Positions 14,350-33,573 of a stretch of DNA of 33,573 nt are shown in pieces. Within the stretch, counting starts at the first letter, position 1, and each line of letters starts with the position of its first letter. The notes under the pieces are model-generated. The model saw nothing but the letters and a program-made list of their open reading frames with translations. It searched no databases and was not told where the DNA came from. Source of the DNA: a virus; IMG/VR virus record IMGVR_UViG_3300045933_000173, positions 1-33,573 of that record. One strand, written 5' to 3'. The translations under genes and the position numbers were made by a program.

Positions 14350-14367
14350 GAAAGTGATCGTCGACGC

Positions 14368-17281: not shown

Positions 17282-17379
17282 CGCTTGGGGTCGCTTTCTG
17301 CCTGGGAGAAACGCATCGGCCTTTGGGAAGCGCGACGGCGCGCACGCTTGAGAGTCCGCCATCATCATCACGATCGTCT

Positions 17380-18011: not shown

Positions 18012-18021
18012 GCCCTCGCGC

Positions 18022-18303: not shown

Positions 18304-18307
18304 GCCA

Positions 18308-19078: not shown

Positions 19079-19091
19079 GGAACCCTTCCCA

Positions 19092-19982
19092 ATGGACCCG
19101 GTCTTCCGCATCGACGAAGAGTTCAAGCGGCTCCATCGCAATCTCACCGAGGAAGAGCGCTCGCAGCTTTGGGCCGATCTCAACGCGCACGGCATTCTCT
19201 CGCCGCTAATCGTGTGGAGGGAAAAGAGAATCCTGCTCGATGGACACAACCGCGATGCCTGGGCGCAATCCAAAAAGGTCGCTAGCGGGCCGGTTAAACT
19301 TCTCTCCTTCCCCGATCGCACCGCGGCGATGCAGTGGGCGATCGGGCTTCAACTCGGGCGCCGTAATCTCACGCCAGACGAGGCAAGCCTACTTCGAGGC
19401 AAGGCTTACAACCTGCAGAAGAAACCGGAAGGTCGCCCAGGGAAACGGAATCAAAGTGATCTAGTTAATGGGCAGACGGCAAAAAGGCTTGCGAAGGACT
19501 ACGGCGTTGGCGAGGCGACCATTAAGCGCGACGGGAAATTCGCCGCGGCGGTGGAAACCATCGCAGAGCACGTCCCCGAGATTGAAGTCCTGGTCAACAA
19601 TGGGCGTTGTCCGATTCCTCGAGGCACCCTCGTTGAAGCGGCCGAGCGCATCAGTTGCGATCCGCAGTTTGCGATCGAACTGCGTGAACAGTTGCAACCC
19701 GCGGCGGCCAGCAAGGAACACAAAACCAAGCCCAGAGTAGAAAAGGAAACCGACGAGGAGGCGGACAGGCAGGCCCGGTTCAATAGGGTTCGCTATCTCG
19801 CCAGCGACCTCTTTCGGTGCTCCATCGGGCTAGATGAACTTGGGAGCAAGGCTCGCCGTGAGTATTGGCTATCGAGCCCAACGGTGACGGACATCACACG
19901 CAAGGCGCTCGTGAACCTGCAAAGCGACGTCAACTCCTGGCTGGGGGAAATCAATGAACTCGCACGAACTGAAACAGCATAA
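19092..19982 (+). CDS. ParB-like nuclease/DNA-binding protein
   Basis: A 296-residue protein with AAGGAA 8 bases before ATG. Residues about 1-75 form a ParB/sulfiredoxin-type domain: FKRLHRNLTEEERSQLWADL, ILSPLIVWREKRILLDGHNR, where GHNR is the ParB signature loop. A helical DNA-binding part follows (RRNLTPDEASLLRGKAYNL, then an HTH around TAKRLAKDYGVGEATIKRDG). The C-terminal third is charged and coiled. No ParA partner is encoded, so partition is unlikely. Such single ParB-like genes in phages are usually regarded as regulators or nucleases. The last 29 bases overlap the next gene. Confidence 0.8.
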   Translation: MDPVFRIDEEFKRLHRNLTEEERSQLWADLNAHGILSPLIVWREKRILLDGHNRDAWAQSKKVASGPVKLLSFPDRTAAMQWAIGLQLGRRNLTPDEASLLRGKAYNLQKKPEGRPGKRNQSDLVNGQTAKRLAKDYGVGEATIKRDGKFAAAVETIAEHVPEIEVLVNNGRCPIPRGTLVEAAERISCDPQFAIELREQLQPAAASKEHKTKPRVEKETDEEADRQARFNRVRYLASDLFRCSIGLDELGSKARREYWLSSPTVTDITRKALVNLQSDVNSWLGEINELARTETA

Positions 19983-20436
19983 ATCGGACGTCCTCGCTGC
20001 CTTCCTTGAGGCGATCAAAGTCAAAGTCACTGACCCTCGTGACTTCCTGGTCACTTACGCCGATCTACATCCCAAGAGGGTTAGTCCATTCGGTCGCCAT
20101 TTCTATTTCGAAGCAATGGAGGTCTTTCTTCGCGGTCACATGCGGACAAAGGCGGGCGACTATCACTGCGATCAAATGAGCCTCTGGCCGGATCTCTTCG
20201 AAGACGGTCCAGTAGGAATCCCCGTAAAAGAGGGCGGCTACATCGGTGCAGGCAAGGCGACTGTCGCCCATTGGGAATACGTCAAGAATGACCATCTCTC
20301 TCAAGCCGATGGACATCTGAAATCGGCTGCGTGGATCGACAACCACATTGCACGGCGGCGCGCGCTGGGGATGCCCGATGATGTCGCATTCTACGATTGG
20401 AGGAAGGGACAACCGAAAGATGGAGAAGGAACATGA
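19954..20436 (+). CDS. Unknown early protein
   Basis: A 160-residue protein starting inside the end of the ParB-like gene, with GGGGGAAA upstream of its ATG. It contains many aromatic and His residues (FGRHFYFEAMEVFLRGHM, DYHCDQMSLWPDLF, AHWEYVKNDHLSQADGHL), consistent with a compact globular fold and possible metal binding. No standard catalytic signature was found. It ends in GQPKDGEGT and overlaps the next start as ATGA. Confidence 0.6.
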   Translation: MNSHELKQHKSDVLAAFLEAIKVKVTDPRDFLVTYADLHPKRVSPFGRHFYFEAMEVFLRGHMRTKAGDYHCDQMSLWPDLFEDGPVGIPVKEGGYIGAGKATVAHWEYVKNDHLSQADGHLKSAAWIDNHIARRRALGMPDDVAFYDWRKGQPKDGEGT

Positions 20437-21605
20437 CTATGGAACACTCCGAATTTTCCGACTCGAGACAAGACCTAGTGGCCGTCGGCAAAGACCTGGC
20501 GGCGTCGGCGTCGGCCGCTTTGGCCAAGGCCACGATTGAAGCCAAGTTCGTCGTGGCGATGCGTAATCGCCGCTCGGTGCTCGGGGCTCGCGCCGCAATC
20601 CTCGATGCCTGCCGCCGGCCGCGCTTTGCCGAGGCCGCGCTCTTCTCGAAGCCGATCGGCGACGGTCGCGTGGAAGGCTTCTCGATCCGCTTCGCCGAGG
20701 CCGCGCTCAACAGTTGGGGCAACGTCGACACGACGGCGGTCACGGCCTGGGAGGATGAGGAGCAACGCCTTGTGCGCATCGGCGTGGTCGATCTCGAAAC
20801 CAACGTTTCCTATTCCGACGAAGTTCTACTTCAAAAGACCGTCGAGCGATCGACGGTGAAAAACGGGCAGGAAGTCCTAGGCGAACGGATTAACAGCAAG
20901 GGCAAGCGAGTTTTCGTCGTTCGCGCCACTGAGGATGAGCTTCAAATCAAGCTCGGCGCTGCCAAGTCGAAGGTAATTCGAAACAACGGACTGCGACTCA
21001 TCCCGGCCGACATCAAAGAGGAGGCGATGGAATTGATAAGGAGCACGTCGGCGACGGGCGGCGGCGATCGCGCGGCCGACGGCAAACGCCTGGCCGATGC
21101 CTTCGCGAATATCGGCATCTCGGTCGAGCAGCTCGAGGCCTACGTCGGACATTCGTTGTCCAACCTGACGCCGGCCGAGTTAGTCGACCTACGCAAGGTC
21201 TATGCGTCGGTTCGCGACGGCGAAGCGACCTGGTCGGAGTTCACGAAACAAGCCGACGATGTCCCAATGGATTCCAAGGCGCCCGCGAAGGATGCTGGAC
21301 CTGCCGCGCCGGCGCCGGACAAGCCGAAGGAGGAGAAGGCGCCCGAGGGCGAACCGTCTGGCGGCCCTATCTTAACAGCCGCCCAGAATCGGATGGACGC
21401 TTGGTTGTCAGTTGAAGGCATAGCTTGGGATGACTTCACCGCCTGGCTCGCGTCCACCAATCGCGCCAAGGATGCCAAGGATTGGGTATCCGTGGCGGAA
21501 ATGCCGGACGAGCTCATCGAACGCCTTTGGGAGGCGTCGCACGATGACGCCGGCTATAAGAAAAACCTCGGGCGTTGCGCCCAGCTCTACGGGAAGAAGC
21601 GATGA
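20433..21605 (+). CDS. Putative single-strand annealing protein (recombinase)
   Basis: A 390-residue protein coupled by ATGA, with GAAGGA before the start. Residues about 70-210 carry the pattern of a phage annealing-protein family: IGDGRVEGFSIRFAEAALNSWGN, a beta strand RIGVVDLETNVSYSDE, then VRATEDELQIKLGAAKSKVIRNNGLRLIPADI. A region about 225-270 (RLADAFANIGISVEQLEAYVG ... ELVDLRKVYASVRDGEATW) resembles the helical extension often attached to RecT-like proteins. A Pro/Lys/Glu-rich linker (about 285-320) leads to a C-terminal domain (AWLSVEGIAWDDFTAWLAS ... YKKNLGRCAQLYGKKR). Downstream genes include a coiled-coil partner and RusA, which fits a phage recombination module. The family call is from memory of patterns. 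Confidence 0.6.
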   Translation: MTMEHSEFSDSRQDLVAVGKDLAASASAALAKATIEAKFVVAMRNRRSVLGARAAILDACRRPRFAEAALFSKPIGDGRVEGFSIRFAEAALNSWGNVDTTAVTAWEDEEQRLVRIGVVDLETNVSYSDEVLLQKTVERSTVKNGQEVLGERINSKGKRVFVVRATEDELQIKLGAAKSKVIRNNGLRLIPADIKEEAMELIRSTSATGGGDRAADGKRLADAFANIGISVEQLEAYVGHSLSNLTPAELVDLRKVYASVRDGEATWSEFTKQADDVPMDSKAPAKDAGPAAPAPDKPKEEKAPEGEPSGGPILTAAQNRMDAWLSVEGIAWDDFTAWLASTNRAKDAKDWVSVAEMPDELIERLWEASHDDAGYKKNLGRCAQLYGKKR

Positions 21606-21778
21606 TTGTTTGGAAGGAACTTATGACTATTGAAATCACCGACGAGGACCGTTCCTTTATGCTGATGGCGCTTGGATTCGTGATTGGAGCAACCATCGAA
21701 CGAAAAGACGAGGAACTCATCGCCTATTTTTTGAAGCAGTCGGAATCCTTACGCCAGAAACTGGCGAAACCACAATGA
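21602..21778 (+). CDS. Small unknown protein in recombination module
   Basis: A 58-residue protein coupled on both sides by ATGA overlaps. After MIVWKELMTIEITDEDR comes a hydrophobic helix FMLMALGFVIGATIE, then an amphipathic helix (ELIAYFLKQSESLRQKL). The hydrophobic part is short for a membrane segment. No family recognised; operon coupling is the main support. Confidence 0.5.
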   Translation: MIVWKELMTIEITDEDRSFMLMALGFVIGATIERKDEELIAYFLKQSESLRQKLAKPQ

Positions 21779-22608
21779 ACGCCCTCGCCCTCTCCGGGCT
21801 CGCGCAGGCCTCCGTTGCGCTGGTGCCCGAGGCGCTTCAGGAACGGGGGCGAATCATCGATCGCCTAGAGGCAGTCGAGGTCGTGCGTGACTCAGCTTCC
21901 AACGAGGTCGCCGTGAAGATCACGCGCGAGGCCGCCGCCATGCTGCAGGAGGTCGAGAAGACAAGGATGTTCCTCAACGGGCCCGTGCTCGCGTTGCAGC
22001 GTTCGCTCAACGCTACGGCCAAAGACTTCTGCCTGCCCCTCGAGGCCGCGATGCGTCGGGTCAATGAGATGTTGTCCGAATTCGCTTCTGAACAACGGCG
22101 CATCGCGCAAGAGGCCGAGGCAAAGAAACGCGAAGAGCTACGCAAGGCGGAAGTCGAACGGCAGAAACTCATGGACGCCGAGGCCGAGCGCCAACGCAAG
22201 GAGCGGCGTTTGATCGAGCAAAAGAGGGTCGAGGAAATCCAAGCCGCCAAGACCAAGGCCGACAAACTCGCCGCGGAAAACAAGGCGCGAGAGGAATTAG
22301 AAGCCGCCCAGACTCGCGCGCGCTTCGAGACTTCGATGATCGAGTCGGAGGCCTCGGCCAAGCGTGTCGAAGTGCTGGCGCAAGTGCCCGCGGTCGTGCC
22401 GGTCCGCGCTGAGGGCCAGGTCACTCGCGCGCCTTGGGTTTTCGACGTGGTCGACGTCCAGGCCCTACTCAAGGCGCGGCCCGACCTGGTCACGGTCGAG
22501 GCCTCCAAGTCGGCGATCAACGCGGCAATCCGGCTTGGCATGAGAGAGTGCCCAGGCCTGGTCATTCGCCAAGAGGTCAAAGCCGGCGTGCGCATCATCA
22601 CGCGATGA
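21775..22608 (+). CDS. Coiled-coil protein of the recombination module
   Basis: A 277-residue protein. Residues about 20-105 are helical (LEAVEVVRDSASNEVAVKI, MLQEVEKTRMFLNGPVLALQ). About 105-205 is a long uninterrupted charged coiled coil (EAKKREELRKAEVERQKL and similar). About 215-277 forms a compact domain, RAPWVFDVVDVQALLKARPD ... INAAIRLGMRECPGLVI. That arrangement recurs in phage proteins encoded next to annealing recombinases, where the C-terminal 'aI..G.r..PGl.i' motif is typical. Probable role: partner of the annealing protein. Coupled upstream and downstream by ATGA. Confidence 0.65.
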   Translation: MNALALSGLAQASVALVPEALQERGRIIDRLEAVEVVRDSASNEVAVKITREAAAMLQEVEKTRMFLNGPVLALQRSLNATAKDFCLPLEAAMRRVNEMLSEFASEQRRIAQEAEAKKREELRKAEVERQKLMDAEAERQRKERRLIEQKRVEEIQAAKTKADKLAAENKAREELEAAQTRARFETSMIESEASAKRVEVLAQVPAVVPVRAEGQVTRAPWVFDVVDVQALLKARPDLVTVEASKSAINAAIRLGMRECPGLVIRQEVKAGVRIITR

Positions 22609-22832
22609 GGGCAGATCGGAAAACGCCGGGGAGGAATGTCTGCAAGCGAATCATCGCCCCAGGCATTTGGGAAGACGCCGATGAAAATATGCACATCTCG
22701 ATTCCCGATCTCCTCCAAGCCTTCGACCTCGAAGACACTCCGACGAACCGAGCACTCGCAGAGCAACTCATTCGCGACGAACTAGCGAAGCAATTCCCAA
22801 CTTCGAAGGTCGTCTTTCGAGCGCGTCCCTGA
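22605..22832 (+). CDS. Small unknown protein
   Basis: A 75-residue protein starting at the ATGA overlap with the coiled-coil gene. Content: a basic N-terminus (RADRKTPGRNVCKR), acidic centre (IWEDADENMHISIPDLLQAFDLED) and a helical C-terminal part (ALAEQLIRDELAKQF). It may interact with DNA or the recombination proteins; this is inferred from position only. Confidence 0.5.
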   Translation: MRADRKTPGRNVCKRIIAPGIWEDADENMHISIPDLLQAFDLEDTPTNRALAEQLIRDELAKQFPTSKVVFRARP

Positions 22833-22843
22833 GAAAGGAGAAA

Positions 22844-23092
22844 TTGAAAGCCTCCGAATTCACCCTGACCGCTCAAATCGCTTGCGTGAATAGGGAAATA
22901 AGATGGCGGCGCTACGTTTATCCCAAGCGCGTCGCGTCATCAAAAATGACCCTGGCCGAGGCCGAGAAGGAAATCGCGGGCATGGAAGCAATCCTAGTCA
23001 CTCTGACCAACCTCCTGATTGAGGAGAACAAGCGCGGCGAAACGCCGTCCCTGTTCGATCGCGCCGCCATCGCACGAGCGAAGGGGGCATGA
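22844..23092 (+). CDS. Small helical protein
   Basis: An 82-residue protein with a strong ribosome site (AAAGGAG 4 bases before a TTG start), which fixes the start. It is largely helical: FTLTAQIACVNREIRWRRYV, then MTLAEAEKEIAGMEAILVTL, ending SLFDRAAIARAKGA. It resembles the small helical proteins placed beside RusA in many phages. Function unknown. Confidence 0.6.
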   Translation: MKASEFTLTAQIACVNREIRWRRYVYPKRVASSKMTLAEAEKEIAGMEAILVTLTNLLIEENKRGETPSLFDRAAIARAKGA

Positions 23093-23107
23093 CTCGAGGG
23101 CTATCCC

Positions 23108-23617
23108 TTGCCCGCGCCTCTCGTCAGCTTCTTTGTTCACGGTCGGCCTCGACCGCAGGGAAGTAAAAGAGCGTTCCCGATTCGCAATCGTGCCGGGCAA
23201 GTCATCAAGACGGCCATCGTCGATTCGTCCGGGGAAGAGGGTCGCGCTTGGCGCTCTCAAATTCGAGACGCCGCGATTGTTGCCTGGGGCGATTTCAAGC
23301 CGGCCCTGACCGGGCCCGTCTCGATCGCTTTCAACTTTACGGCCGTCCGACCCAAGGGGCATTTCGGCACCGGACGCAACGCCGATCGACTCAAACTTGA
23401 TGCCCCTTCTCATCCGACGATCGCGCCCGACCTGCTGAAACTCGCCAGGGCGGTTGAAGACTCGCTGACCTCGATCATCTACCGCGATGACTCGCAGATC
23501 GTCACCGAGGTCCTTTCAAAGCGTTATGGCCCGATCGAAGGCGTCGAGGTCGCCGTCTTCGCCGAGCCCGACGCCGCCAGGGAATTGCCAATCGCTCGAC
23601 AAATCGCGCTCTTGTGA
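23108..23617 (+). CDS. rusA: RusA-family Holliday junction resolvase
   Basis: A 169-residue endonuclease starting at TTG 23108, GAGGG upstream. The N-terminal motif VSFFVHGRPRPQGSKRA matches the RusA 'F.v.G.P.pkgr.R' opening. The active-site region APDLLKLARAVEDSLTSII, then YRDDSQIV and a following Lys (LSKRYG), matches 'D..Nl.K...Dal...i..DD.qI....~K'. The conserved acidic residues Asp (PDL), Glu/Asp (VED) and DD are present. It resolves branched DNA during phage recombination or before packaging. It lies at the end of the recombination module and is coupled (GTGA) to the next gene. Confidence 0.85.
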   Translation: MPAPLVSFFVHGRPRPQGSKRAFPIRNRAGQVIKTAIVDSSGEEGRAWRSQIRDAAIVAWGDFKPALTGPVSIAFNFTAVRPKGHFGTGRNADRLKLDAPSHPTIAPDLLKLARAVEDSLTSIIYRDDSQIVTEVLSKRYGPIEGVEVAVFAEPDAARELPIARQIALL

Positions 23618-23886
23618 GCAAACCGGCGAACTGCCGCAGGTTCCAAATCCCGGATAAGAGAGTCCGGTATTTCACGACGCCCTCTTCGGAGGTCCTCGCA
23701 GGTTTCCTCGATCGCAAGTTTCCGGCTATGCCATCCGAGGTTCGATTGCGGGTAATTATGGGTTGGAGGAAGGCAATGGATCGGACCGGTGGACGCGACC
23801 GACAGGGACGAGCGATTCTCGATTGGCAACCGTCATTCAATGCCTACGCCAACGGCACCTGGCGAAGCATGCGAATGCAAGAATGA
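23614..23886 (+). CDS. Small unknown protein between rusA and the replication gene
   Basis: A 90-residue basic protein with GTG start in a GTGA overlap with rusA. It contains RYFTTPSSEVLAGFLDRKF, VRLRVIMGWRKAMDRTGGRDRQGR and a C-terminal SFNAYANGTWRSMRMQE. It is rich in Arg and aromatics, suggesting nucleic-acid contact. No family recognised. Coupled by ATGA to the replication initiator. Confidence 0.55.
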   Translation: MSKPANCRRFQIPDKRVRYFTTPSSEVLAGFLDRKFPAMPSEVRLRVIMGWRKAMDRTGGRDRQGRAILDWQPSFNAYANGTWRSMRMQE

Positions 23887-24725
23887 GCCAGCCGCTGACA
23901 GGCCAAGTGGCATTATTCATCAAGAAGGGCCGATCTGCATTGAGTCCGACCGCGCGGCTTCTTCTGTTCACGCTTGCCGACCTGATCCCCAAGGGCCGTC
24001 GTGAATGGCGCACGACTTGGGCGGAACTGACGAAGGAATGTCGCCTTAATCAAAACTCGCTTGAAAGGACCGGGCGAATGCTCGCCAAAAAAAGGGTCAT
24101 CGGCCTTCACCGGAATAAGTATGGAATCACTATCGAACTCCTTTTTGCCGACATTCCAGATAGATCCAAAAAGGATCTCTCTCGAACAAATCTAGGGATT
24201 TCAGATAGATCCAAATTGTGTCCTTCAGATAGATCCAAAAAGGATCCATTGACAACCCCCTTACAATCCCCCAAAGGCCACGCCCCAAGCCAAGCCTCCG
24301 CCGAAGGTAAGGTCTCTGAGGAACTTTACCTCAAAGAGGGGGTTAAGAGCGCATCGGCCCCCATTCCATCGGCAAAAGAACCCAAAAAAAGTGGCGTTCC
24401 AGCCGCCAGCAACGGCGCTCCAGGGAAGTTCAAGGAGTCGGGGAAGGTCAGTTTGGAGCAGGAACTGCGCGAGACGAAAAGGACGCTTGCCCGGCTGCGC
24501 GGCAGATTCGCAGATCCGCCGACCAAGGTGGAGGAACGAACAGCTAAGCCCTACCGCGAGAGAATACGCCAGCTCGAAGAAAAACTCGGGTGGCTTCCGA
24601 GCGAACCCGTCATCCCCGCTGAACCCGCTCCCCCACCTCCACCCCAGCGAACCGCCGCGGAGGTTTTGCAGCGTAAAGCGAACGTCGAGGCTGAAATCGC
24701 CAGGATGCGACAGGCCGCCAGATGA
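23883..24725 (+). CDS. Replication initiator-like protein with winged-helix domain and embedded iterons
   Basis: A 280-residue protein starting at the ATGA overlap. Residues about 15-85 form a winged-helix domain (KKGRSALSPTARLLLFTLAD ... WRTTWAELTKECRLNQNSLE ... MLAKKRVIGLHRNK), as in phage replication initiators of the lambda O or RepL type. The middle (about 92-125) is the polar segment encoded by three iteron repeats, each giving DRSK. The C-terminal half has a Ser/Lys-rich linker and a coiled coil (EQELRETKRTLARLRGRFAD ... IRQLEEKLGWLPS), a possible contact for host helicase or loader. No helicase, primase or polymerase gene is present, so host replisome recruitment is inferred. Confidence 0.7.
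   Translation: MSQPLTGQVALFIKKGRSALSPTARLLLFTLADLIPKGRREWRTTWAELTKECRLNQNSLERTGRMLAKKRVIGLHRNKYGITIELLFADIPDRSKKDLSRTNLGISDRSKLCPSDRSKKDPLTTPLQSPKGHAPSQASAEGKVSEELYLKEGVKSASAPIPSAKEPKKSGVPAASNGAPGKFKESGKVSLEQELRETKRTLARLRGRFADPPTKVEERTAKPYRERIRQLEEKLGWLPSEPVIPAEPAPPPPPQRTAAEVLQRKANVEAEIARMRQAAR
24158..24246 (+). repeat. Iterons, candidate replication origin inside the initiator gene
   Basis: Three direct repeats of cagatagatccaaa start at 24158, 24201 and 24225 (spacings 43 and 24). In copies 1 and 3 they continue as aaggatc, giving the inverted pair GATCC-AAAAA-GGATC; copy 2 diverges after the shared part. Repeats of this kind within an initiator gene, as in lambda O, mark the origin. The nearby sequence lacks a long AT-rich melting stretch. 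Confidence 0.65.
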
Positions 24726-24827
24726 CGCTCGTGACAGTCAAAGCTGCGGCACGCGCACCGATCGCAAGTCAGCCAACAGGCCGAAGGCTTTGCATTAGGA
24801 GAGCAAAGCGGGGATGCTCCCTATCCC

Positions 24828-24986
24828 ATGAGCACCTATTTGCTCGCGGCGTTCCTCCTGCTCTACGGCGCAACCATCATCTTCGGCGCCGCCATCCCTC
24901 CCTGGGTCTCGGGCGTGTTGGCCCTTGCGGCTGGTATCCTGCTGCTGATCGAGCCCCATTTCCCGTGGCGCAAGACGTCGACCTAG
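24828..24986 (+). CDS. Small two-helix membrane protein
   Basis: A 52-residue protein starting at ATG 24828. Two hydrophobic helices, TYLLAAFLLLYGATIIFGAA (about 3-22) and WVSGVLALAAGILLLIE (about 26-42), are separated by IPP and followed by a short basic tail (PHFPWRKTST). It lies at the end of the early operon, before the intergenic gap upstream of terS. Small proteins with this PxWVxGxLALxAGxLLL second helix are seen in other phage genomes at similar positions. A holin-like role is possible but the family's function is not known to me. Confidence 0.6.
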   Translation: MSTYLLAAFLLLYGATIIFGAAIPPWVSGVLALAAGILLLIEPHFPWRKTST

Positions 24987-25181
24987 GCGCCTCTAGGGGA
25001 GATCAGCCGCCCACTCGTATCCCGCCCCACCCAGGGGAAAAAGACGCGGCTGCGAGGCACCCAGGGGCCTTGCCGGGCCGTATAAGGAATCTCTTGGACG
25101 TCGTCACCGGACGCGGGGGTCAGGGCACCGGCGCAAATCTGGCGAGTGTCATCTCATGGTAGATGCTAACATGTTTGGCCA
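24987..25181. other. Intergenic gap upstream of terS: candidate cos/packaging region
   Basis: 195 bp without a convincing gene. It contains two exact copies of cacccagggg (25028-25037 and 25058-25067, 30 bp apart) and a weaker relative (cctctagggg at 24990). Lambda-type phages carry cosN and terS-binding repeats just upstream of the small terminase gene, so this is the most likely packaging site. No clear promoter was found for terS. Confidence 0.4.
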
Positions 25182-25838
25182 ATGACTCTCAAGGCCCTTA
25201 GCGTGGCCTTTAACGTGTCGGCTGCGCACGCCGGACGGTGGAAACGCCAGGGAATGCCGACCGGTTCAGTGGACGAGGCCCGCGCCTGGTTGAAACAACA
25301 CCGGCGCCGACCTGGTCGGCGTCCTGGCTGGAACAAAGCCAAGGCCAAGATTGCCGCGGCGCTTGGAAAGGGTCCGGCGCCGGTCAATGGGTCGGCCAAG
25401 CCCTCGCCTACGCCCCAGGCCGCGGCCGCCGTCAACGGGCACGCCTTGCCGATCGACACGCCGGCCGTGCTTTTGGGGAGGCTTGCTCATGTGGAACGGG
25501 TCGCCTTCGCCATGATCGAGGATGCCCGCGCCAAGGGTGAGCCGATCCTCGAGCGCGAGTGTGTGCGGGTGCACCGGGACGCCGCCGTGAACCTGGCCAA
25601 CGCACGCTCGGATTGGACCCATGCCATGGAGAAAGAAGGCAAACTGGTCTCGGCTGACTGGGTGCGGCGCGCCTTTGCTCAACACGACGGGGTCTTGGTG
25701 TCCCTCCTTCGCAATATGCCCCGCACGCTGGCCGCCCGCATCCTCCCCTCGGACGTCGAGTTTGCCGAGGGTGAGCTAGGTCGGTGGGTCGACGGCTTCT
25801 TGGCAACCATGTACGCAACACAACCCTTGCCGTCATGA
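25182..25838 (+). CDS. terS: Terminase small subunit (putative)
   Basis: A 218-residue protein immediately upstream of terL and coupled to it by ATGA. The N-terminus has a winged/HTH-like DNA-binding section: KALSVAFNVSAAHAGRWKRQG, then VDEARAWLKQHRRRPGRRPG, similar in layout to lambda gpNu1 (HTH that binds cos). A Lys/Ala/Pro-rich linker (about 50-90) leads to a helical C-terminal domain (about 95-215), expected for oligomerisation and contact with the large subunit. The role is to recognise phage DNA for packaging. The start ATG lacks a clear ribosome site. Confidence 0.75.
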   Translation: MTLKALSVAFNVSAAHAGRWKRQGMPTGSVDEARAWLKQHRRRPGRRPGWNKAKAKIAAALGKGPAPVNGSAKPSPTPQAAAAVNGHALPIDTPAVLLGRLAHVERVAFAMIEDARAKGEPILERECVRVHRDAAVNLANARSDWTHAMEKEGKLVSADWVRRAFAQHDGVLVSLLRNMPRTLAARILPSDVEFAEGELGRWVDGFLATMYATQPLPS

Positions 25839-27694
25839 CCGTCCGCGACGACGAGAAGCTTTGCGCCGAGCTGCTCGAGTTTCGTCGGGAGTTTTACCAA
25901 CCCTTGCCGCAGACGACGGTGGCGGAATGGGCCGAGGCCAACCTCGTTTTAAGCGAGCGCCAAACCGAGTCGCCTGGGCCGTTGTCGTTTGCGTCGCGGC
26001 CCTACGCCCGCGAAGTGTTGGAGAGCTTCAGAGACCGATCGATTGAGGGCGTCACCCTGGTCTTTGGGAGCCAGTCCGGCAAAAGCCTGGTCCTCATGGT
26101 GGGCGCCGCCTGGACGATGACGCATGAACCACGGCCGATCCTCTGGGTCCTGCCCAACCAGGAACTTGCGCGGTCTTTCTCGAAGACCCGGTGGCAACCC
26201 CTGGTCGACGAATCCAAAGAGCTCAGGCGCCAACGGCCGGCGAGTGGACACGATTACACGAACCTCGAGCAGCACTTCGCCAAGTGCACCCTGAACTTTG
26301 TGGGCTCCAATTCGCCGGCGTCCATTTCATCGCGGCCGGTCGGGCTACTCGTGGCCGACGAGGTCGACAAGTTTGCGCCGGCCTCGAGCAAGGAGGCCTC
26401 CGCGCTCGAGCTCGCCGAGCAACGGGTCAAGGCCTTCACCAATTCGAAGGTTGTGCGCGCGTCGACGCCGACGACGGTCGACGGCGAAATCTGGCAACGC
26501 TATCTGCTCGGCGACCAGCGCCGATTCTTCGTGCCGTGCATTGCCTGCGGTCAGGCCCAGGTCCTCGAGTGGAAGGGCGTCGTTTGGGATGACCAGGCCA
26601 AGGACGAAGCCGGCCAATGGATCATGCCGAAGGTCAAGGCAAGTGCCCGTTATCGGTGCGCCCATTGCAAGACGCTCCTCACCGACCCGCAAAAGTTCGC
26701 CATGATTCGCAAGGGAGAGTGGCGGCCGACCAATCCCAACGCGGCGCCAGGAGAGAGGAGTTTTCAGCTTTCGAGCCTCTACAGCCCGGACCGCAAGTGC
26801 ACGCTCGGAGCCCTGGCGGTGAAGTTCCTGCAAGGCACCAAGTCCATCCTGGGCCTCCAGTCCTTTGTCTCCGGCGACCTGGCCGAGCCTTGGGAGAATC
26901 AAACGCTGACCAAGATCGAACGCACGGAACTGATCAGCGAACGTATGGAAGTGAAGGGCGAATGGCGCAAGCTGATGACGGTCGATTGCCAAGCGCGCGC
27001 GCCGTATTTCTGGGCGATTGTGCGCGCGTGGACGGAAGGGAAATCCGAAGCGGTCTTTGCCGGCTCGTTTAACAGTTGGGAAGAAGTCGAACGGATCCAG
27101 GCGCAACACGCCGTCCCCGACGTCGGCGTTCTAGTCGATTCGGGCTTTGGAAGCCGAAGCGACGTCGACGTGTATTCGTCGTGCGTGAAGCATTGCGAAA
27201 TCGTGACGCGCACCTTCGGGCAATTGCCTAGCGCGATCGGCTGGCAACCGTGCAAAGGATTCCCAAGCCGGCGCCGTTGGCGCGACGACGCGACCGGCCT
27301 TTGGCTTCCCTACTTCCTAAGGCCCACGGATCCCTTTCTTGGAACGGCAAACGCCGGCCAGGTTGAAATCCTTCTCTTCGAATTCAGCGCCGACTTCTTC
27401 AAGGACTTGTTAGAATTGTTGCGCCGCCAGCAAGGGCCCCATCGATGGACGGTCGGCCGGCAAATCGCGACCGACGTTTATTGGCAACACCTGGACGGGG
27501 AAACCAAGGAAGCCGTTCGCAATCCGCGCACGGGCAAGACGTCCTACGTCTGGAAGAAGCGATCGTCGCATTGGCCGAATCACCTCTTCGATTGCGAAGT
27601 GATGCAGCTTGCCGGCGCGTCGTTCTACGGCTTGCTTGATCTTGGCGAACCGGAACCCGAACCGGCTGGCGAGCCTATGCTTGCGGTTGCATGA
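25835..27694 (+). CDS. terL: Terminase large subunit, lambda gpA family
   Basis: A 619-residue DNA-packaging ATPase/nuclease; ATG 25835 overlaps the terS stop. ATPase domain: Q-motif region TVAEWAEANLVLSERQTESPG, Walker A-like FGSQSGKS, Walker B LLVADEVDKF, coupling ASTPT. An inserted zinc-binding pair follows (CIACGQ ... CAHCKT), typical of gpA-type terminases. The C-terminal nuclease part includes MTVDCQAR, DVGVLVDSGFGS and HLFDCEVMQLA, supplying acidic residues. gpA-type enzymes normally cut at cos sites. Glu codons switch abruptly from 20 GAG/7 GAA (to 26896) to 1 GAG/20 GAA (from 26918), pointing to recombination within the gene. Confidence 0.92.
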   Translation: MTVRDDEKLCAELLEFRREFYQPLPQTTVAEWAEANLVLSERQTESPGPLSFASRPYAREVLESFRDRSIEGVTLVFGSQSGKSLVLMVGAAWTMTHEPRPILWVLPNQELARSFSKTRWQPLVDESKELRRQRPASGHDYTNLEQHFAKCTLNFVGSNSPASISSRPVGLLVADEVDKFAPASSKEASALELAEQRVKAFTNSKVVRASTPTTVDGEIWQRYLLGDQRRFFVPCIACGQAQVLEWKGVVWDDQAKDEAGQWIMPKVKASARYRCAHCKTLLTDPQKFAMIRKGEWRPTNPNAAPGERSFQLSSLYSPDRKCTLGALAVKFLQGTKSILGLQSFVSGDLAEPWENQTLTKIERTELISERMEVKGEWRKLMTVDCQARAPYFWAIVRAWTEGKSEAVFAGSFNSWEEVERIQAQHAVPDVGVLVDSGFGSRSDVDVYSSCVKHCEIVTRTFGQLPSAIGWQPCKGFPSRRRWRDDATGLWLPYFLRPTDPFLGTANAGQVEILLFEFSADFFKDLLELLRRQQGPHRWTVGRQIATDVYWQHLDGETKEAVRNPRTGKTSYVWKKRSSHWPNHLFDCEVMQLAGASFYGLLDLGEPEPEPAGEPMLAVA

Positions 27695-27909
27695 AGGGAA
27701 ACGGCCAAGCCGACGTGCCCGAATTCTATTCGGCAAAACAACTTGCCGCGATTTTCAAGCGTCATAAGTCATGGATTTACAGCGCAAAGGCCAAGGGATT
27801 CCCGATGCCCGGCGGCCGGTCGACGATCGAGGCTCTTGTCTTCTGGCTCAGTGAGAATCCGCGACCGCGCGCAAAAGTGCGTCCGAACGCGAGCAAAAGC
27901 GCACTCTAG
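27691..27909 (+). CDS. Small helix-turn-helix protein after terL
   Basis: A 72-residue basic protein coupled to terL by ATGA. Residues about 12-56 fit the excisionase-type HTH: FYSAKQLAAIFKRHKSWIYS, then KAKGFPMPGGRSTIEALVFWLS. The C-terminus is Arg/Pro-rich (PRPRAKVRP). Phages often encode a small HTH or head-completion gene here (lambda gpW position), but this sequence looks DNA-binding. It could be a packaging or late-gene regulator. Confidence 0.6.
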   Translation: MKGNGQADVPEFYSAKQLAAIFKRHKSWIYSAKAKGFPMPGGRSTIEALVFWLSENPRPRAKVRPNASKSAL

Positions 27910-27937
27910 TTTTTTGCAATCCGCCGGTTGCCCGTGG

Positions 27938-27955
27938 CTCACAATCTCTTGTGAG
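27938..27955 (+). promoter_or_regulatory. Perfect short hairpin after the HTH gene
   Basis: CTCACAA-TCTC-TTGTGAG, a 7-bp perfect stem with a 4-base loop, 29 bases after the HTH gene stop. There is no U-run after it, so it is not a standard terminator. It may be an RNA processing or stability element, or a small operator. Confidence 0.4.
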
Positions 27956-28002
27956 TATTGGTGCGCGCCGCCGGCAAGCCATTCGATCATGGTGTAAGGC
28001 TT

Positions 28003-28042
28003 CCAAGAGTAAGGGTCAAACCCTCCAAAATTACCTTGGAGG
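28003..28042 (+). promoter_or_regulatory. Mutually exclusive RNA stems upstream of the pre-portal gene
   Basis: One fold pairs CCAAG (28003-28007) with CTTGG (28035-28039) around an inner hairpin AGGGT-CAA-ACCCT (28012-28024). The competing fold pairs CCTCCAA (28022-28028) with TTGGAGG (28036-28042) and buries the GGAGG. The two share bases and cannot coexist. GGAGG is a strong ribosome-site core, so a translational switch is conceivable. No gene start at ideal spacing was found. Confidence 0.35.
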
Positions 28043-28058
28043 AATTGAAGATTCTTCT

Positions 28059-28358
28059 GTGACCGGGCGGCCGGCGATCCAGTCCGCGTCTCGCGCCGGC
28101 GAATCAGCTTCCTACTTCGCGCCCGGTCAATCCGGGGAGATGACCGGCGACGAATTCACGGAATTGATCGACGCGGTCTTGATGTTTCTTCCGTGTCTCG
28201 AAGCCGAGCTGCAAAACGAACTGGACCAGATCGAAGCGGATCGGGAACCGACACACGACGAGATTTGCGCGGCCCTGATCCTGTCCGTTCAAGAAGGCGC
28301 GACGATCGTCTGCCGCGACTACAGCCAGCTTTTCAGGGGATGCGGTTGCCCCTGCTAG
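28059..28358 (+). CDS. Unknown protein immediately upstream of the portal gene
   Basis: The frame is open from GTG 27951, but the start is uncertain: GTG 27951, GTG 28059 (used here, 99 residues, downstream of the RNA stems) or ATG 28140 (72 residues). The C-terminal 72 residues are the convincing part: a helix DEFTELIDAVLMFLPCLEAEL, an acidic stretch, a helix EICAALILSVQEGATIVC and a Cys-rich end (LFRGCGCPC). It sits where lambda-like phages place the head-completion gene (gpW), though no similarity to gpW was seen. The stop is 3 bases before the portal start. Confidence 0.5.
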   Translation: MTGRPAIQSASRAGESASYFAPGQSGEMTGDEFTELIDAVLMFLPCLEAELQNELDQIEADREPTHDEICAALILSVQEGATIVCRDYSQLFRGCGCPC

Positions 28359-28361
28359 CGT

Positions 28362-29870
28362 ATGTTGGACGCCTTACGCTACCGGATCGCCGGCTGGCTT
28401 CTCAAATACGACGCCACGCGTTACACGCCGGAACGGGCATGGATCCCCGGCGTTCCGCAGGCGGCGCGTCTGGATCTTACGCCGGCCGGACGCCTTCGCA
28501 TGGTCAACCGTGCGCGCGACGCCGAACACAACGTCCCCTTGATTGGGCGGATTCTGGATCTGTTCGAACTGTACGCGGTTGGGCCGGGCCTGGTCATGCA
28601 ACCCGATTCGTCGTCGGAGGAATGGAACGAACGCGCGGCGGAATGGTGGTCGGGTTGGGAGAAGCGTTGCGACCTGGGAAGCTTGCTTCCCTTCACCTTT
28701 TCGCAAGGCGTGTTGACCCGGCGCTTTGTCGTCGACGGCGAAGACTTCATCGTCAAGACCTATGACCCGCTTACGAAGGAACCGGCGATTCAATTTGTCG
28801 AATCGCCACGCGTCGCAACGCCGCCCGAACAGAAAGACGGCAACCTTTTATATGACGGCGTGACGATGACCGAATTCGGCCGCCCGACGGGTTACTGGAT
28901 CGGAACGGAAAAGTTTGACGAATCGGGCGCGGTCAAAACGACCTATGATCTAAAGCCGGCGTCGTCTGTTATCCACGTTTGGGAGCCGATGCGCTTTGGC
29001 GACGTGCGCGGCGCGACCATGTTCCACGCGGTTTTGGATTTGCTCCAAGACCTAAGGGAAATTTCAAAGCTTGAACTTCAGGCGGCCAAGTCGGCGGCGG
29101 CGACAACCGAAATCATCACGACGCCGACCGGGGAATTGGACCCGGCGCAAATGCTCAAGGCGCGTTTCGGCATGGCCAAGACTGGTGGCGCGACGCCGCC
29201 GCCAGGCGTGTGCGCGTCAACCGATCCGGGCACCTACTACGAAGCTGTTCTAGGCGCCCGACCGAAGGTCATTAAACAGGGCGACAAGTATGAACAATTC
29301 AGAAGCGAACGTCCTTCGGTTGTCACGCAAGCCTACTTACGCACACTCATGGAGTTGGTGTGCGTTGGGATCGGCCTTCCGCTTCAAGTTGTCCTGTTTG
29401 AATCCACGCAAGGGACAACGCTTCGGGCGCTCATGGATGTTTTCAGCGGATTCAGCCGGGCGCGATCCCTAGTGATCCAGGCCGCGTGCGTCGAAGTCTA
29501 CCGTTACGCGATGAATTGGGCGCGGGTCAACGTGCCGACGTTGCGCGACGCGCCGGGCGATTGGGATCAAGTCGCCGTCTATCCGCCCAAATCCCCGAAC
29601 ACGGACATTGGTCGCAACAGCCAGGCCGAACTTGCGGAGCTTGCCGCCGGCATGACGACGCAACGGGAAATCTACGCGCGGCGCGGTTTGGTTTCCTCAC
29701 GCGAACGGCGCCGGTGGTTTGAGGAACAAGCGGCCGATCGCCGCCTTGCAACCGAATTTGGTGTCGCGCCTCCGGCAATGGACGGCAAGCCGGTAGCCGC
29801 GCCGCTGGCGGCGCCGGCGCTTTCCCCCAACCCGGACGCAGACGAAGAAATCGCGAAGGGCGGCGCATGA
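28362..29870 (+). CDS. Portal protein, lambda gpB family
   Basis: A 502-residue portal subunit. The N-terminal region has RYTPERAWIPG, then MVNRARDAEHNVPLIGRILD and FELYAVGPGLVMQP, the order typical of lambda-type portals ('R..aRdL.rNn.~a.~~i...~~nvVG.Gi..q'). The central part includes DGEDFIVKTYDP and HVWEPMRFGDVRGATMFHAV. Residues about 315-380 (SERPSVVTQAYLRTLMELVC, GLPLQVVLFESTQGTTLRAL) form the stem/wing region. The dodecameric ring would be the channel for DNA and the tail attachment point. Length fits the family (lambda 533). It is coupled to the protease gene by ATGA. Glu codons are 29 GAA to 6 GAG. Confidence 0.9.
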   Translation: MLDALRYRIAGWLLKYDATRYTPERAWIPGVPQAARLDLTPAGRLRMVNRARDAEHNVPLIGRILDLFELYAVGPGLVMQPDSSSEEWNERAAEWWSGWEKRCDLGSLLPFTFSQGVLTRRFVVDGEDFIVKTYDPLTKEPAIQFVESPRVATPPEQKDGNLLYDGVTMTEFGRPTGYWIGTEKFDESGAVKTTYDLKPASSVIHVWEPMRFGDVRGATMFHAVLDLLQDLREISKLELQAAKSAAATTEIITTPTGELDPAQMLKARFGMAKTGGATPPPGVCASTDPGTYYEAVLGARPKVIKQGDKYEQFRSERPSVVTQAYLRTLMELVCVGIGLPLQVVLFESTQGTTLRALMDVFSGFSRARSLVIQAACVEVYRYAMNWARVNVPTLRDAPGDWDQVAVYPPKSPNTDIGRNSQAELAELAAGMTTQREIYARRGLVSSRERRRWFEEQAADRRLATEFGVAPPAMDGKPVAAPLAAPALSPNPDADEEIAKGGA

Positions 29871-30952
29871 ATGAAATCAGTTTCTACGGCGACATAGGAT
29901 CGCCCGACGGCGTCGACATAAAAAGGGTCGACGAAAAATTGGCGTCCCTCAAAGGCAAGGGCCCGATCCTGATTCGCCTTCATTCGGGCGGCGGCGATTA
30001 CTACACGGGCTTGGGAATTTACGACCGGCTAAAGTCAATTCCCGAATCGACCGTGATCATCGACGGCGTTTCGGCTTCGGCCGCTTCGGTCGCGATGCTT
30101 GGCGCCGGCCGCGTGATCATGCCTTCGAACGCCTGGGTCATGGTGCATCCGGTCAACGCCAAGGTCGAAGGCGACGCCGCACGATTACGGCAAGGCGCCG
30201 ACCGCGCGGAAGACGCGACCGAAAAACTTCGGGCGATCTACCTCAAGGAAACCGGCCAACCCGAAGCCGTCGTGGATCAATGGCTTGCCGGCGGTGAAAC
30301 ATGGTTTGACGCACCGGCCGCACTTAAAGCGGGACTAGTCGACGAAATCGTTGACCCGATCCCCCTTCAAAACTTCGTCAATCTCGCCCGCTTCGTAAAC
30401 GCGCCCGACGCGGCGAAGGTTCAATTGACCGCAAAGGCGTGTGATCAGAACCAATTCAAAATGAAATCCCTATTACAGGCACTCGTAGACAACCGGCTCT
30501 TGAATTGCGGTTGTATGACAGCCGGCGCCGACAAGGAACCGGACATTGTAAACGAACTCAAGGCGAGTCTTGCCGGCCTTACTTCGGAACGCGATTCGCT
30601 GAAAACGCGTCTTGAAGCCTTGGAAAAGGAACTGGCCGGGCTCAATGCGAAGTCGGCCACAACCTTGCAGGCGCGCGCGACGGCCGCCGTCGAAGCCGCC
30701 GTAACGGATGGGCGACTGGCGCCGGCGCTTCGCGCGACACTCGTCAACGCCTACATCGGCGACGAACCGGGAACCTTGAAGAATCTTTCTGAACTTCCCC
30801 GCCCGACCGCCGGCGGAACGGCGCCCGTAGGGCGTGGATCGGGCAACGACAACAAGTCGCTAGAGGAAAAGATCGCGGCCGAAAAGGATCCCAAGGAACG
30901 GATCCGACTTCGCAATCAAAGCTGGTCGACCCTTTGCCCGGAACTCCGCTAG
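29867..30952 (+). CDS. Head maturation protease, ClpP-like, with scaffold-like C-terminus
   Basis: A 361-residue protein. Residues 1-165 form a ClpP/S14-type serine protease: FYGDIGSPDG, LIRLHSGGGDYYTGLGIYD, IIDGVSASAASVAMLGA with probable nucleophile Ser71, WVMVHP with His94, and WFDAPAALKAGLVDEIVDPI. Residues about 235-270 form a coiled coil (LTSERDSLKTRLEALEKEL) and the rest is Ala-rich and polar. A protease fused to a coiled-coil tail matches phages in which the same polypeptide supplies protease and scaffold; an internal start for a separate scaffold is possible (ATG at the codon for MKSLLQALVDN or MTAGADKEP). It acts on capsid and portal during procapsid maturation. Confidence 0.88.
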   Translation: MNEISFYGDIGSPDGVDIKRVDEKLASLKGKGPILIRLHSGGGDYYTGLGIYDRLKSIPESTVIIDGVSASAASVAMLGAGRVIMPSNAWVMVHPVNAKVEGDAARLRQGADRAEDATEKLRAIYLKETGQPEAVVDQWLAGGETWFDAPAALKAGLVDEIVDPIPLQNFVNLARFVNAPDAAKVQLTAKACDQNQFKMKSLLQALVDNRLLNCGCMTAGADKEPDIVNELKASLAGLTSERDSLKTRLEALEKELAGLNAKSATTLQARATAAVEAAVTDGRLAPALRATLVNAYIGDEPGTLKNLSELPRPTAGGTAPVGRGSGNDNKSLEEKIAAEKDPKERIRLRNQSWSTLCPELR

Positions 30953-31001
30953 AGGCCAAGGGCCCACACACACTGGAGAAAATCCCAACTCCCTAGAATT
31001 T

Positions 31002-31883
31002 ATGCCGAACACTTTCAACGCAGAAACCCTTTGCAATCAGTGTTGCGACGTTGCATTGACGCAACTTTGCCAACTGCTGGGGCCCCTGGACAAATTCGCC
31101 AACGATTGTTCGCCCGATCCCATGTCGCCCTCGCGACCGATCGTCATTCCGGTTGTGACAAGCGCAAGCGCCGTCCAGACGAACCCGACGAACTTCACGA
31201 CGGGCGCCGGGTCGGTTGTGCGCGGGATCACGATCACGCCGAAACATTTGTCGATTCCGTACATGATTTCGTCGGCGGAGTACAACAAAGGCTACCGGAT
31301 CGAACAGCTTGTCAGTATCCACGCGCAAAAGCTGGCGTCGGCGATTTGGGCGGAAGTGACGCCGATCATGGTCAACGACGCGACCACGCCGGCCAACCCG
31401 CCCAACGCGTTCCCAAGCGGCAACAAGGTGGTCAAAGCGATCGCGAGCTTCGACCCGACAACGGTGGGCGAGATTTACGCGAAGCTTCTTTGCTCGCCGA
31501 AGCATTTGCTTCTGGATCCGGCCGCCGCAGCCAAACTCATGTTTCAACCTGGCGGTTGCTGCCAGCCATTGGGCAAGGGCGCAGGCGGCCTTGGCTTCGA
31601 AACGATCAGCGAACATTCGCAATGGACGGGCGGTCAACCGAACCTTTACGGCTTCGGCTTCTGCCGCGAAGCGATCGCGATCGCGTCGGGCGTTCCGGCG
31701 ACGTCGCCGGCATGCGCCGGGATCCTTGATCAACGAACAATTACGTTGCCCGGCATCGGCCTAAGCGTGCAGGTCAATTCATGGTGCGATCCGTCGGCGC
31801 GCGGAATGTACCAGTCACTCGACATTATCTTTGGCGCGGCGCTTGGCGTGCCTTGCCAGGGCGTGACGGTCCTTTCGGCGTAG
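31002..31883 (+). CDS. Major capsid protein (putative, Cys-rich)
   Basis: A 293-residue protein directly after the protease, the usual capsid gene position. It shows features of a HK97-fold coat protein: an N-terminal helical arm, GSVVRGITITPKHLSIPYMI (extended-loop-like), a central helix YRIEQLVSIHAQKLASAIW, then ASFDPTTVGEIYAKLL and a C-terminal beta-rich region ending GVTVLSA. It has 12 Cys, five of them in the first 36 residues (11, 14, 15, 23, 36) and a CC pair in PGGCCQP, which is unusual. The start has no ribosome site but a short upstream box like that of the tail tube gene. A strong hairpin follows 45 bases after the stop. Confidence 0.82.
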   Translation: MPNTFNAETLCNQCCDVALTQLCQLLGPLDKFANDCSPDPMSPSRPIVIPVVTSASAVQTNPTNFTTGAGSVVRGITITPKHLSIPYMISSAEYNKGYRIEQLVSIHAQKLASAIWAEVTPIMVNDATTPANPPNAFPSGNKVVKAIASFDPTTVGEIYAKLLCSPKHLLLDPAAAAKLMFQPGGCCQPLGKGAGGLGFETISEHSQWTGGQPNLYGFGFCREAIAIASGVPATSPACAGILDQRTITLPGIGLSVQVNSWCDPSARGMYQSLDIIFGAALGVPCQGVTVLSA

Positions 31884-31927
31884 TGGGATCGGTTGGCTTC
31901 CCTTCCCCCTAGCGCAATCCTGAACGG

Positions 31928-31971
31928 AACCGGCGCGCCGCTTTATAGGTTGGGTGGGCGGCGCGCCGGTT
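31928..31971 (+). promoter_or_regulatory. 14-bp perfect hairpin downstream of the capsid gene
   Basis: Perfect inverted repeat AACCGGCGCGCCGC (31928-31941) and its complement (31958-31971) with a 16-base loop. It is almost all G and C in the stem and has no U-run after it. It lies between capsid and connector genes. Likely roles are protecting the capsid mRNA 3' end or partial attenuation, making capsid mRNA more abundant than downstream mRNA. Confidence 0.6.
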
Positions 31972-31989
31972 GAAATTCGCAAGGAAGCA

Positions 31990-32406
31990 ATGGGCGGCGC
32001 CCGCGAACTTCTGAACGACGGCCGGCGAACGCTCGTCGGCGAATACAACGTGACCTTCAGTGTCGACGGTTTCCCCGGCGTCGCATTTACCGGGCTTTGT
32101 GACGAAGTCTTTTTCGAGAACGAACTTGGCGCCGGCGGTTTCCTGCCGGGCGCCGAAGGATCGTTGCTTGTGCCAGCCGAGGAATTCCAAAAGGTCAACT
32201 GGCGGCCGTTCCCCGGCGCGCGCCTTACCGTCTACGATCACCCGTGGATCGTTTCGCGGATCGGCATGAACGAACAACGCTGGGTTCTGACGCTTGTGCT
32301 GGGTCACCCGAAGACAACCGATTTGCCGATGACCGTTCGGGTCATGGCCGACCAAAACAAGAGGCCCATCGCCACAAGCGCGGGCACAATCCAGGTGAAA
32401 CCATGA
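31990..32406 (+). CDS. Head-tail connector/stopper-type protein (putative)
   Basis: 138 residues from ATG 31990, with AAGGAAG just upstream. A GTG at 31954 in the same frame lies in the loop of the hairpin and is less likely. After a helix (ARELLNDGRRTLV), the protein is beta-rich: YNVTFSVDGFPGVAFTG, VPAEEFQKVNWRPFPGARL, VYDHPWIVSRIGMNEQRWV. A beta fold of this size following the capsid gene fits the lambda FII or head-tail stopper group, in which the 'G......p..d..~~~v~~v.......~~l' plan is common. Role by position and composition. Coupled by ATGA to the next gene. Confidence 0.55.
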   Translation: MGGARELLNDGRRTLVGEYNVTFSVDGFPGVAFTGLCDEVFFENELGAGGFLPGAEGSLLVPAEEFQKVNWRPFPGARLTVYDHPWIVSRIGMNEQRWVLTLVLGHPKTTDLPMTVRVMADQNKRPIATSAGTIQVKP

Positions 32407-32930
32407 ACGAAGCAGAGAACGAAGAATCCTTTATGCCCTGGCCGATCCCTATTGGCGACTTGCCTGAGGCGACAGCCATCGAGACCGACGACGTCCTTCT
32501 CCTGGAGAGCCCGACCAAGGGCACGCGGCGTATGCTCGCAGCCAATATGCTGCCGCGCCCGTTCGTGACGGAACAAACGGCCGACGTCGCGATTGATTCG
32601 GACAACGATACGGAAGTCCTGTCCATTCTCCTGCCGCCGGCGCCGTTGCCCGCGTTCCTTGCGATCGGCGTCACGCTTCACAATATCACCGGAAGCGGGA
32701 ACAAAACGCTTTCGGTAAAGCTTAAAGCCGACGGCGTGGACAAGGACATGCGAAGCGTTTCCTTTGTGGGCGCATTAGACACGTTTGCCTTTCGCGTCAT
32801 TCAGCCTGGCGATGCCGGCGGCGAATCAACGTGGACGGTCACGCTTCGCACGGATTCGGGCGGCGTCACACTGGAAGGTAGTGAGCGGTCTTCCTCGATG
32901 GAAATCGTCAGCTTCCCAGCTTCTGTCTAA
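32403..32930 (+). CDS. Unknown structural protein (decoration or neck)
   Basis: A 175-residue protein starting in an ATGA overlap; the upstream open frame is shadow. The opening IGDLPEATAIETDDVLLLES, then TKGTRRMLAANML, resembles the 'dLP.at.l..tD.l.ve....tkri...nl' phrase found at the start of several phage structural proteins. The remainder is beta-rich (AIGVTLHNITGSGNKTLSVKL ... STWTVTLRTDSGGVTL), suggesting a jelly-roll or Ig-like decoration domain. No enzyme motif. It lies among neck genes. Glu codons are mainly GAA. Confidence 0.55.
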   Translation: MNEAENEESFMPWPIPIGDLPEATAIETDDVLLLESPTKGTRRMLAANMLPRPFVTEQTADVAIDSDNDTEVLSILLPPAPLPAFLAIGVTLHNITGSGNKTLSVKLKADGVDKDMRSVSFVGALDTFAFRVIQPGDAGGESTWTVTLRTDSGGVTLEGSERSSSMEIVSFPASV

Positions 32931-32942
32931 GGCCGCCTAGCG

Positions 32943-33479
32943 ATGGTCCTTTTGCAGCTAGAACAACACGCGCAACGCTGGCTCCTGGGCGTCGCTCCCT
33001 TTTTGATCGCGGAAACGGGCTCCTATATCCTCACCGACAAGGGCCTTAAAATTAAACTGGCGTCGGGCTACCAATTCAATTTGCCGGTCCTGACTGGCCA
33101 GGGCGCTTGTGAAGTCAGTGGGCCTTGCCTCGTGGCGGTCGGCGTCGAGGCCGTTCAAATCGGTTGCACGCTCAATCACGACGCCACCCTGGGCGTCGAG
33201 CTTCGCTGGCCGGCTGACGCGAAGCTCGGGATAGGCACGCGCGAAGAACTCCTCGCGTGCTTCATTTACGCGGCCGGTCAATTGCAAACGGCCCTGTACC
33301 GAACCGACCTTTCCGACCTTCTCACTGAGAGCATCACGGGCGATGCCTTTACCTGTTTCCGCGTTGCGCAAGGCGGCCGGGTGCAAACCTCGGCCTGGGA
33401 CAAGCGCAACCGCATTTACCGGATCGAGGTCAAATGCGAAGTAGCAAGCGCCTACGTGCCAAAGAATACCCCGCCCTAG
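32943..33479 (+). CDS. Neck/tail-terminator-type protein (putative)
   Basis: A 178-residue protein that would be followed, across the circle junction, by the gene at base 35 (one base apart). Beta segments (AETGSYILTDKGLKIKLASGYQ, SGPCLVAVGVEAVQIGCTL) flank a helical region (REELLACFIYAAGQLQTALY). Size and position match a tail terminator or connector, but no family was recognised. Glu codon use is mixed (6 GAA/4 GAG), at the transition between the GAA-rich capsid block and the GAG-rich tail block. Confidence 0.5.
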   Translation: MVLLQLEQHAQRWLLGVAPFLIAETGSYILTDKGLKIKLASGYQFNLPVLTGQGACEVSGPCLVAVGVEAVQIGCTLNHDATLGVELRWPADAKLGIGTREELLACFIYAAGQLQTALYRTDLSDLLTESITGDAFTCFRVAQGGRVQTSAWDKRNRIYRIEVKCEVASAYVPKNTPP

Positions 33480-33573
33480 AGTGAACTTCGACCAGGAAGA
33501 GTACCGGATGCAGATCGCTCGCTTTGCCAAGATAAGCGGCAAGGACGTGGGCGTGGTCCTCAAGGACGAGACG
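33447..33573. repeat. Terminal direct repeat, right copy
   Basis: Identical to bases 1-127. It holds the last 33 bases of the neck gene ending at 33479 and a second copy of the first 93 bases of the gene that starts at base 35 (GTG at 33481). Those 93 bases are a duplicate of one gene start and do not represent a separate partial gene. Confidence 0.93.

Follow-up and report, generated by a model that had tools for sequence, protein, structure and literature searches.

Does the large terminase gene (terL) of the virus recorded in IMG/VR as IMGVR_UViG_3300045933_000173, whose glutamate codons change abruptly between the ATPase and the nuclease domains, descend from one phage lineage or from two? 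An initial annotation of the locus took the switch to mean that two lineages had been fused in frame at or near this junction, with the nuclease half having travelled together with the capsid genes. We have followed up this reading over the whole record of 33,573 bases (the window), the ends of which are identical over 127 bases (1–127 and 33447–33573, an exact match), so that the genome, though presented as linear, is a closed circle of 33,446 bp. In our assessment terL arose naturally, with a probability of roughly 0.87, from two phage lineages by in-frame recombination at the ATPase-nuclease linker, with the small terminase (TerS) and the ATPase related to a widespread set of contigs (L023–L102, groups A and B), and the nuclease, portal, protease and capsid related to two other contigs of a rare lineage, L002 and L003.

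Domain organization of terL and genomic setting

The terL reading frame (25784/25835–27694) is an intact large terminase of the gpA type (lambda-like), matched by the Pfam families PF05876, over residues 46–296, and PF20454. The ATPase carries the Walker motifs GSQSGKS (residues 78–84) and D175/E176, with Q80, D175 and E176 invariant in a comparison of 22 sequences, and in the same comparison the acidic residues D384 and D435 of the nuclease are invariant and D586 is nearly so. Judged by its sequence, the product thus has both the ATPase and the endonuclease domains of a gpA-type terminase and is the predicted packaging and cos-cleavage enzyme. The AlphaFold (AF2) model of the protein has a mean pLDDT of 85.9, and its sole internal stretch below 50 comprises residues 356–361, between the two domains; the best Foldseek matches to this model are solved terminases, with both domains being matched.

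The coordinates of terL and of the other features discussed are collected in Table 1. Elsewhere in the genome, a tRNA-Lys gene (anticodon ttt, 15164–15238, minus strand) adjoins the integrase gene (15331–16728, minus strand) and is possibly the attachment site. The tail region includes a protein of 1066 amino acids (3910–7110) that resembles nothing in PHROGs, in annotated phages or among the related contigs searched, and a fibre gene (12092–13378) with GXY collagen-like repeats at 12780–13002, repeated in a 9-nt register. The putative capsid protein has no match in Pfam, PHROGs or annotated phages.

Table 1. Features of the terL locus and of the compositional blocks, with their coordinates in the window.
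Feature	Coordinates	Strand	Evidence and closest relatives
GAG/CTC-poor block 2, tail-fibre region	7668–14258		96/357 GAR/YTC sites are GAG/CTC (0.27); k-mer signature like block 1
RusA-like resolvase gene	23108–23617	+	PF05866; L003 69%, group A 34%
terS, small terminase	25182–25838	+	best matches in group A, at about 37% across about 217 residues; L002/L003 give short matches only
terL part 1, ATPase domain, residues 1–356	25835–26902	+	PF05876, E 1.8e-58; A/B lineage; GAG-normal DNA
Probable recombination junction, interdomain linker, residues about 355–362	26894–26918	+	maximum chi-square breakpoint; composition change point; AF2 pLDDT
GAG/CTC-poor block 1, from the nuclease through the head genes	26896–32961		69/365 GAR/YTC sites are GAG/CTC (0.19); circular segmentation
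terL part 2, nuclease domain	26903–27694	+	PF20454, E 2.8e-15; L002/L003 lineage; GAG-poor DNA
Small gene adjoining nuclease (g27691)	27691–27909	+	L003-like, 67%
Small gene (g27951), 135 residues	27951–28358	+	homologs solely in L002/L003 among the loci compared
Portal protein	28362–29870	+	PF05136; L003 41%, L002 40%; GAG-poor DNA
Head maturation protease, ClpP-like	29867–30952	+	PF00574; L002 48%, L003 46%, group A about 34%; GAG-poor DNA
Putative major capsid protein (by position)	31002–31883	+	L002 71%, L003 53%; GAG-poor DNA

The compositional switch

Recounting the glutamate codons of terL reproduced the annotated numbers exactly, with 20 GAG and 7 GAA up to position 26896 and 20 GAA and 1 GAG from 26918 onwards. 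The best change point falls between 26894 and 26918 and was equalled in none of 20,000 permutations. The nuclease half had also been said to share its style with the portal, protease and capsid genes, and indeed the portal (29 GAA, 6 GAG) and the protease (23 GAA, 1 GAG) have the same bias. Among 90 other homologous terL genes, which include many close relatives and therefore amount to fewer than 90 independent controls, the largest glutamate switch has a Fisher p of 0.07, against 1e-6 in the present gene. When GAG and CTC are counted in all reading frames the values are 7e-11 here and 0.006 for the next strongest gene, and a switch of this size is absent from the 88 homologs analyzed in this way.

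Although the abrupt switch is real, its attribution to glutamate codon usage did not hold. The frequency of GAG per 1000 codons in the three frames is 8.8, 0.6 and 2.9 in the block from nuclease to capsid and 50.6, 7.0 and 14.0 in TerS and the ATPase, and CTC, the reverse complement, is likewise depleted in the former. Outside the coding frame, the ratio of GAG plus CTC to GAA plus TTC is 24:25 in TerS and the ATPase, 1:16 in the nuclease and 11:98 in the other head genes, whereas synonymous shuffling, which preserves both the protein and its codon usage, leads one to expect 23.4, 8.7 and 44.3 out-of-frame GAG and CTC, respectively. The deviation from the shuffles corresponds to z=−3.3 and −6.4 for the GAG-poor DNA and about 0 for TerS and the ATPase. 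The depletion thus extends to every frame and to both strands, codon preference is ruled out as its cause by the out-of-frame counts and the shuffles, and the depleted unit is the trinucleotide GAG/CTC itself: the loss is not explained by longer motifs (for instance CTCGAG or GAGCTC), as all flanking contexts are reduced by about 3–5 fold. With glutamate codons excluded, the remaining in-frame codons still differ across terL (p=0.0015 or 0.12, according to the training set); they do not serve as an independent locator of the joint, since their change point shifts to 27230 or 26678.

Composition, a profile of which across 25–33 kb had been proposed with the initial annotation, was followed over the entire genome by a two-state circular segmentation on all 2326 GAR/YTC sites. 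The fraction of GAG/CTC is 0.54 from 32982 to 7655, 0.27 from 7668 to 14258, about 0.52 from 14265 to 26894 and 0.19 from 26896 to 32961. The boundary within terL thus falls at 26894/26896 (2-nat range 26885–26939), and the signature of the blocks is distinct in tetranucleotides as well, with a correlation of 0.87–0.89 between the two GAG-poor blocks and of 0.60–0.73 between the blocks and the rest of the genome. Both blocks are enriched in CCGG (about 2-fold) and GATCC (about 2.6-fold) relative to the rest, and AGG is about 0.6-fold as frequent. The shift involves numerous words, so that the GAG-poor blocks are most simply read as carrying a foreign genomic signature, active avoidance of one trinucleotide being possible. 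The signature common to the head and the fibre blocks points to a common source. Block 2 encodes a fibre protein of 1422 residues and a collagen-like one of 428 residues.

Different relatives of the two halves

A search with the whole TerL protein returns two relatives, L002 and L003, to which the identity is about 0.42–0.45 up to residue 350 and 0.67–0.69 from residue 362, whereas L002 and L003 compared with each other are flat across the gene (0.71 and 0.78). When the ATPase half alone is the query, the widespread lineage of groups A and B is retrieved with 54–58% identity, as compared with 42% to L002/L003. The nuclease half behaves in the opposite way, with 67–69% identity to L002/L003, 45% to group A and 28–33% to group B, and its relatives in viral contigs are four only: L003 (69%), L002 (67%), L021 (48%) and L022 (42%). 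Against genome contigs the nuclease half gave one weak match of 26%, in a Desulfuromonadaceae MAG (L107). The present ATPase is without a 13-residue insertion common to these four viral contigs, and it has in common with groups A and B the segments SSLYSPDRKCT and LAEPWENQ, directly upstream of the join.

A maximum chi-square scan places the breakpoint between residues 355 and 362 (26897–26918; 0 of 5000 permutations), which coincides with the disordered stretch of the model and hence lies between the domains. Nucleotide matches swap partner at the same place, those to a group A genome ending at 26902 and those to L003 starting at 26948. Searches for a near-identical donor returned none, the nearest kin being those at 54–58% for the ATPase and 67–69% for the nuclease, none with the GAG-poor signature, and donor searches by portal, capsid and exact junction DNA found nothing.

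The loci from the nuclease through g27691, g27951, portal, protease and capsid to g31954 are all nearest to L002/L003 and in the same gene order. The claimed linkage of the nuclease half to portal, protease and capsid is therefore upheld; that it was this half which travelled is less clear, since the RusA gene upstream is also L003-like, and its upstream neighbours are likewise nearest to L003 (42–57%). In view of this, the A/B-like piece is possibly as short as TerS and the ATPase. The identity of the portal to group A is 38%, hardly below its 40% to L002/L003 and far below that of the nuclease, and on this comparison the head block may itself be mosaic.

Trees of the ATPase and nuclease domains

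In the ATPase tree, L002, L003, L021 and L022 group together, apart from the present phage and groups A/B (support 100/100), and the ATPase data reject a clade of the present phage with L002 and L003 (delta lnL 50, AU p=0.0002). In the nuclease tree the present phage is placed with L002/L003 with a support of 85/84, or 92/96 in a larger set, but the relatives are few and distant, the tree is weakly resolved, and the grouping of the ATPase type is not rejected by the nuclease data (AU p=0.145). The kinship of the nuclease is therefore drawn from branch lengths and identities: the path from the present phage to L003 is 0.59 in the nuclease tree and about 2.3 in the ATPase tree. Trees were rebuilt without the very distant L004, L005, L017 and L107 on account of long-branch distortion. 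The separate trees recommended with the initial annotation thus conflict from one side only. Agreement of the two trees and the same switch in related phages would speak for simple descent, and neither was observed, as the ATPase tree conflicts and 90 homologs are without the switch.

It is the combination of ATPase phylogeny, breakpoint scan and crossing identities that supports a derivation of terL from two lineages, and the partner change in nucleotide matches and the modelled linker agree with the in-frame fusion originally annotated.

The same linker in groups A and B

Within the L023–L102 contigs one ATPase type is paired with two very different nuclease types, and the portals differ. 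Groups A and B are about 61% identical in TerS and 79% in the ATPase, as compared with 34% in the nuclease, about 35% in the next gene, 46% in the portal and 41% in the protease, and the identity changes directly after LAEPWE(N/Q)Q, in the same linker. As both halves evolve at similar rates within each group, the difference between A and B results from a swap and not from a fast nuclease. From these comparisons, the linker junction seems to be used repeatedly, with TerS and the ATPase on one side and nuclease, portal and head genes on the other.

Origin of the join and alternative explanations

The downstream block was probably imported from a phage with another signature, containing very few GAG/CTC, and would not yet have ameliorated; a source of this kind is probable for the tail-fibre block, too. 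L002, L003 and group A are GAG-normal, with a DNA signature resembling the rest of the genome, and since the GAG-poor blocks are unlike all of these, we infer that they are the newcomers. The opposite direction, in which an L003-like phage, with resident nuclease and head genes, exchanged its own TerS and ATPase for an A/B-like cassette (about 25.2–26.9 kb), is a possibility of some weight, if the lesser one: L003-like genes lie upstream as well as downstream, with TerS and the ATPase alone being A/B-like, but the cassette has the signature of the integrase, early and tail regions, and it is the head block that deviates, even from L002/L003. More doubtful is the conjecture that the GAG-poor blocks are the fossil of an earlier host which counter-selected or mutated away GAG/CTC, as a short restriction, modification or PAM-like target, and that the head-plus-nuclease and fibre modules came from that host, with the motor halves meeting at a site of repeated exchange; a literature search on trinucleotide avoidance in phages gave nothing relevant.

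The remaining alternatives dispense with recombination between lineages. Vertical descent with a faster ATPase in the present phage, the nuclease reflecting true kinship to L002/L003, would be compatible with the long end branch of this ATPase (0.7–0.8), but is very improbable, as the ATPase is positively nearer to A/B, both in identity and in the two segments mentioned, lacks the 13-residue insertion, and TerS changes kinship along with it. An assembler that joined two phages inside terL is also very improbable. The sequence is an IMG/VR virus contig, no further independent contig bearing this junction was detected, and LAEPWENQ is conserved and could conceivably be the shared word; the exact 127-nt repeat nevertheless closes the contig, the four composition changes on the circle would require four false joins, and the frame of terL is kept with all its motifs intact. 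Hardly credible is a change of glutamate codons within a non-recombinant terL by translational selection or a position effect. The homologs do lean slightly the same way (the all-frame GAG fraction differing by 0.05 on average), yet none of the 88 has an effect of this size, the depletion has the same strength outside the coding frame and on the complementary strand and spans the neighbouring genes, and protein kinship switches at the same place.

The preferred reading, a natural join of two lineages, may also have a functional reason for its position. In lambda, TerS binds TerL through the C-terminal part of TerS, and TerL docks on the portal through its C-terminal domain (PMC9026076). By analogy, a join in the linker would spare both contact surfaces, the one between TerS and the motor half as well as the one between the C-terminal half and the portal, thereby keeping TerS with its ATPase and the nuclease half with its own portal.

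Relation to known systems and implications

A survey of domain mosaicism (Nat Commun 2023, PMC10684548) located hot spots in receptor-binding proteins, endolysins, neck proteins and replication genes. Neither TerL nor packaging turned up when its main text was searched for these words. The present case resembles those mosaics in that parts of one gene were exchanged in frame at the boundary of two domains, leaving halves of different kin, but unlike the hot spots it lies in the packaging motor and ties its halves to different gene modules. For the terminase of Xanthomonas phage PBR31 (PMC10975493), in which the ATPase domain has Lederbergvirus homologs and the nuclease has none, the authors proposed either transfer of gene parts or faster evolution of the nuclease and left the matter open. 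Here, by comparison, both kin lineages are named, the breakpoint is placed to about 25 nt, the composition shift coincides with it, and groups A/B provide a second case. In the lambda-21 and lambda-N15 hybrid terminases (PMC9026076, PMC4669245), likewise of the gpA type with specificity domains at opposite ends, the swapped segments are cosB and the 5' portion of the TerS gene, whereas the natural join described here separates the ATPase domain of TerL from its nuclease domain. Events of this kind are already known; the new elements are the resolution, the trinucleotide signature and the repeated use of one linker.

Phage trees and predictions of packaging type commonly rely on TerL as their only marker gene. 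If its halves are exchanged at the linker, of which one group here offers two examples, a tree of the whole gene blends two histories. A frame-independent trinucleotide signature locates such joints in single genomes more sharply than codon counts, and the pattern of TerS with ATPase on one side and nuclease with portal and head on the other amounts to a testable rule on which contacts of the motor must co-evolve.
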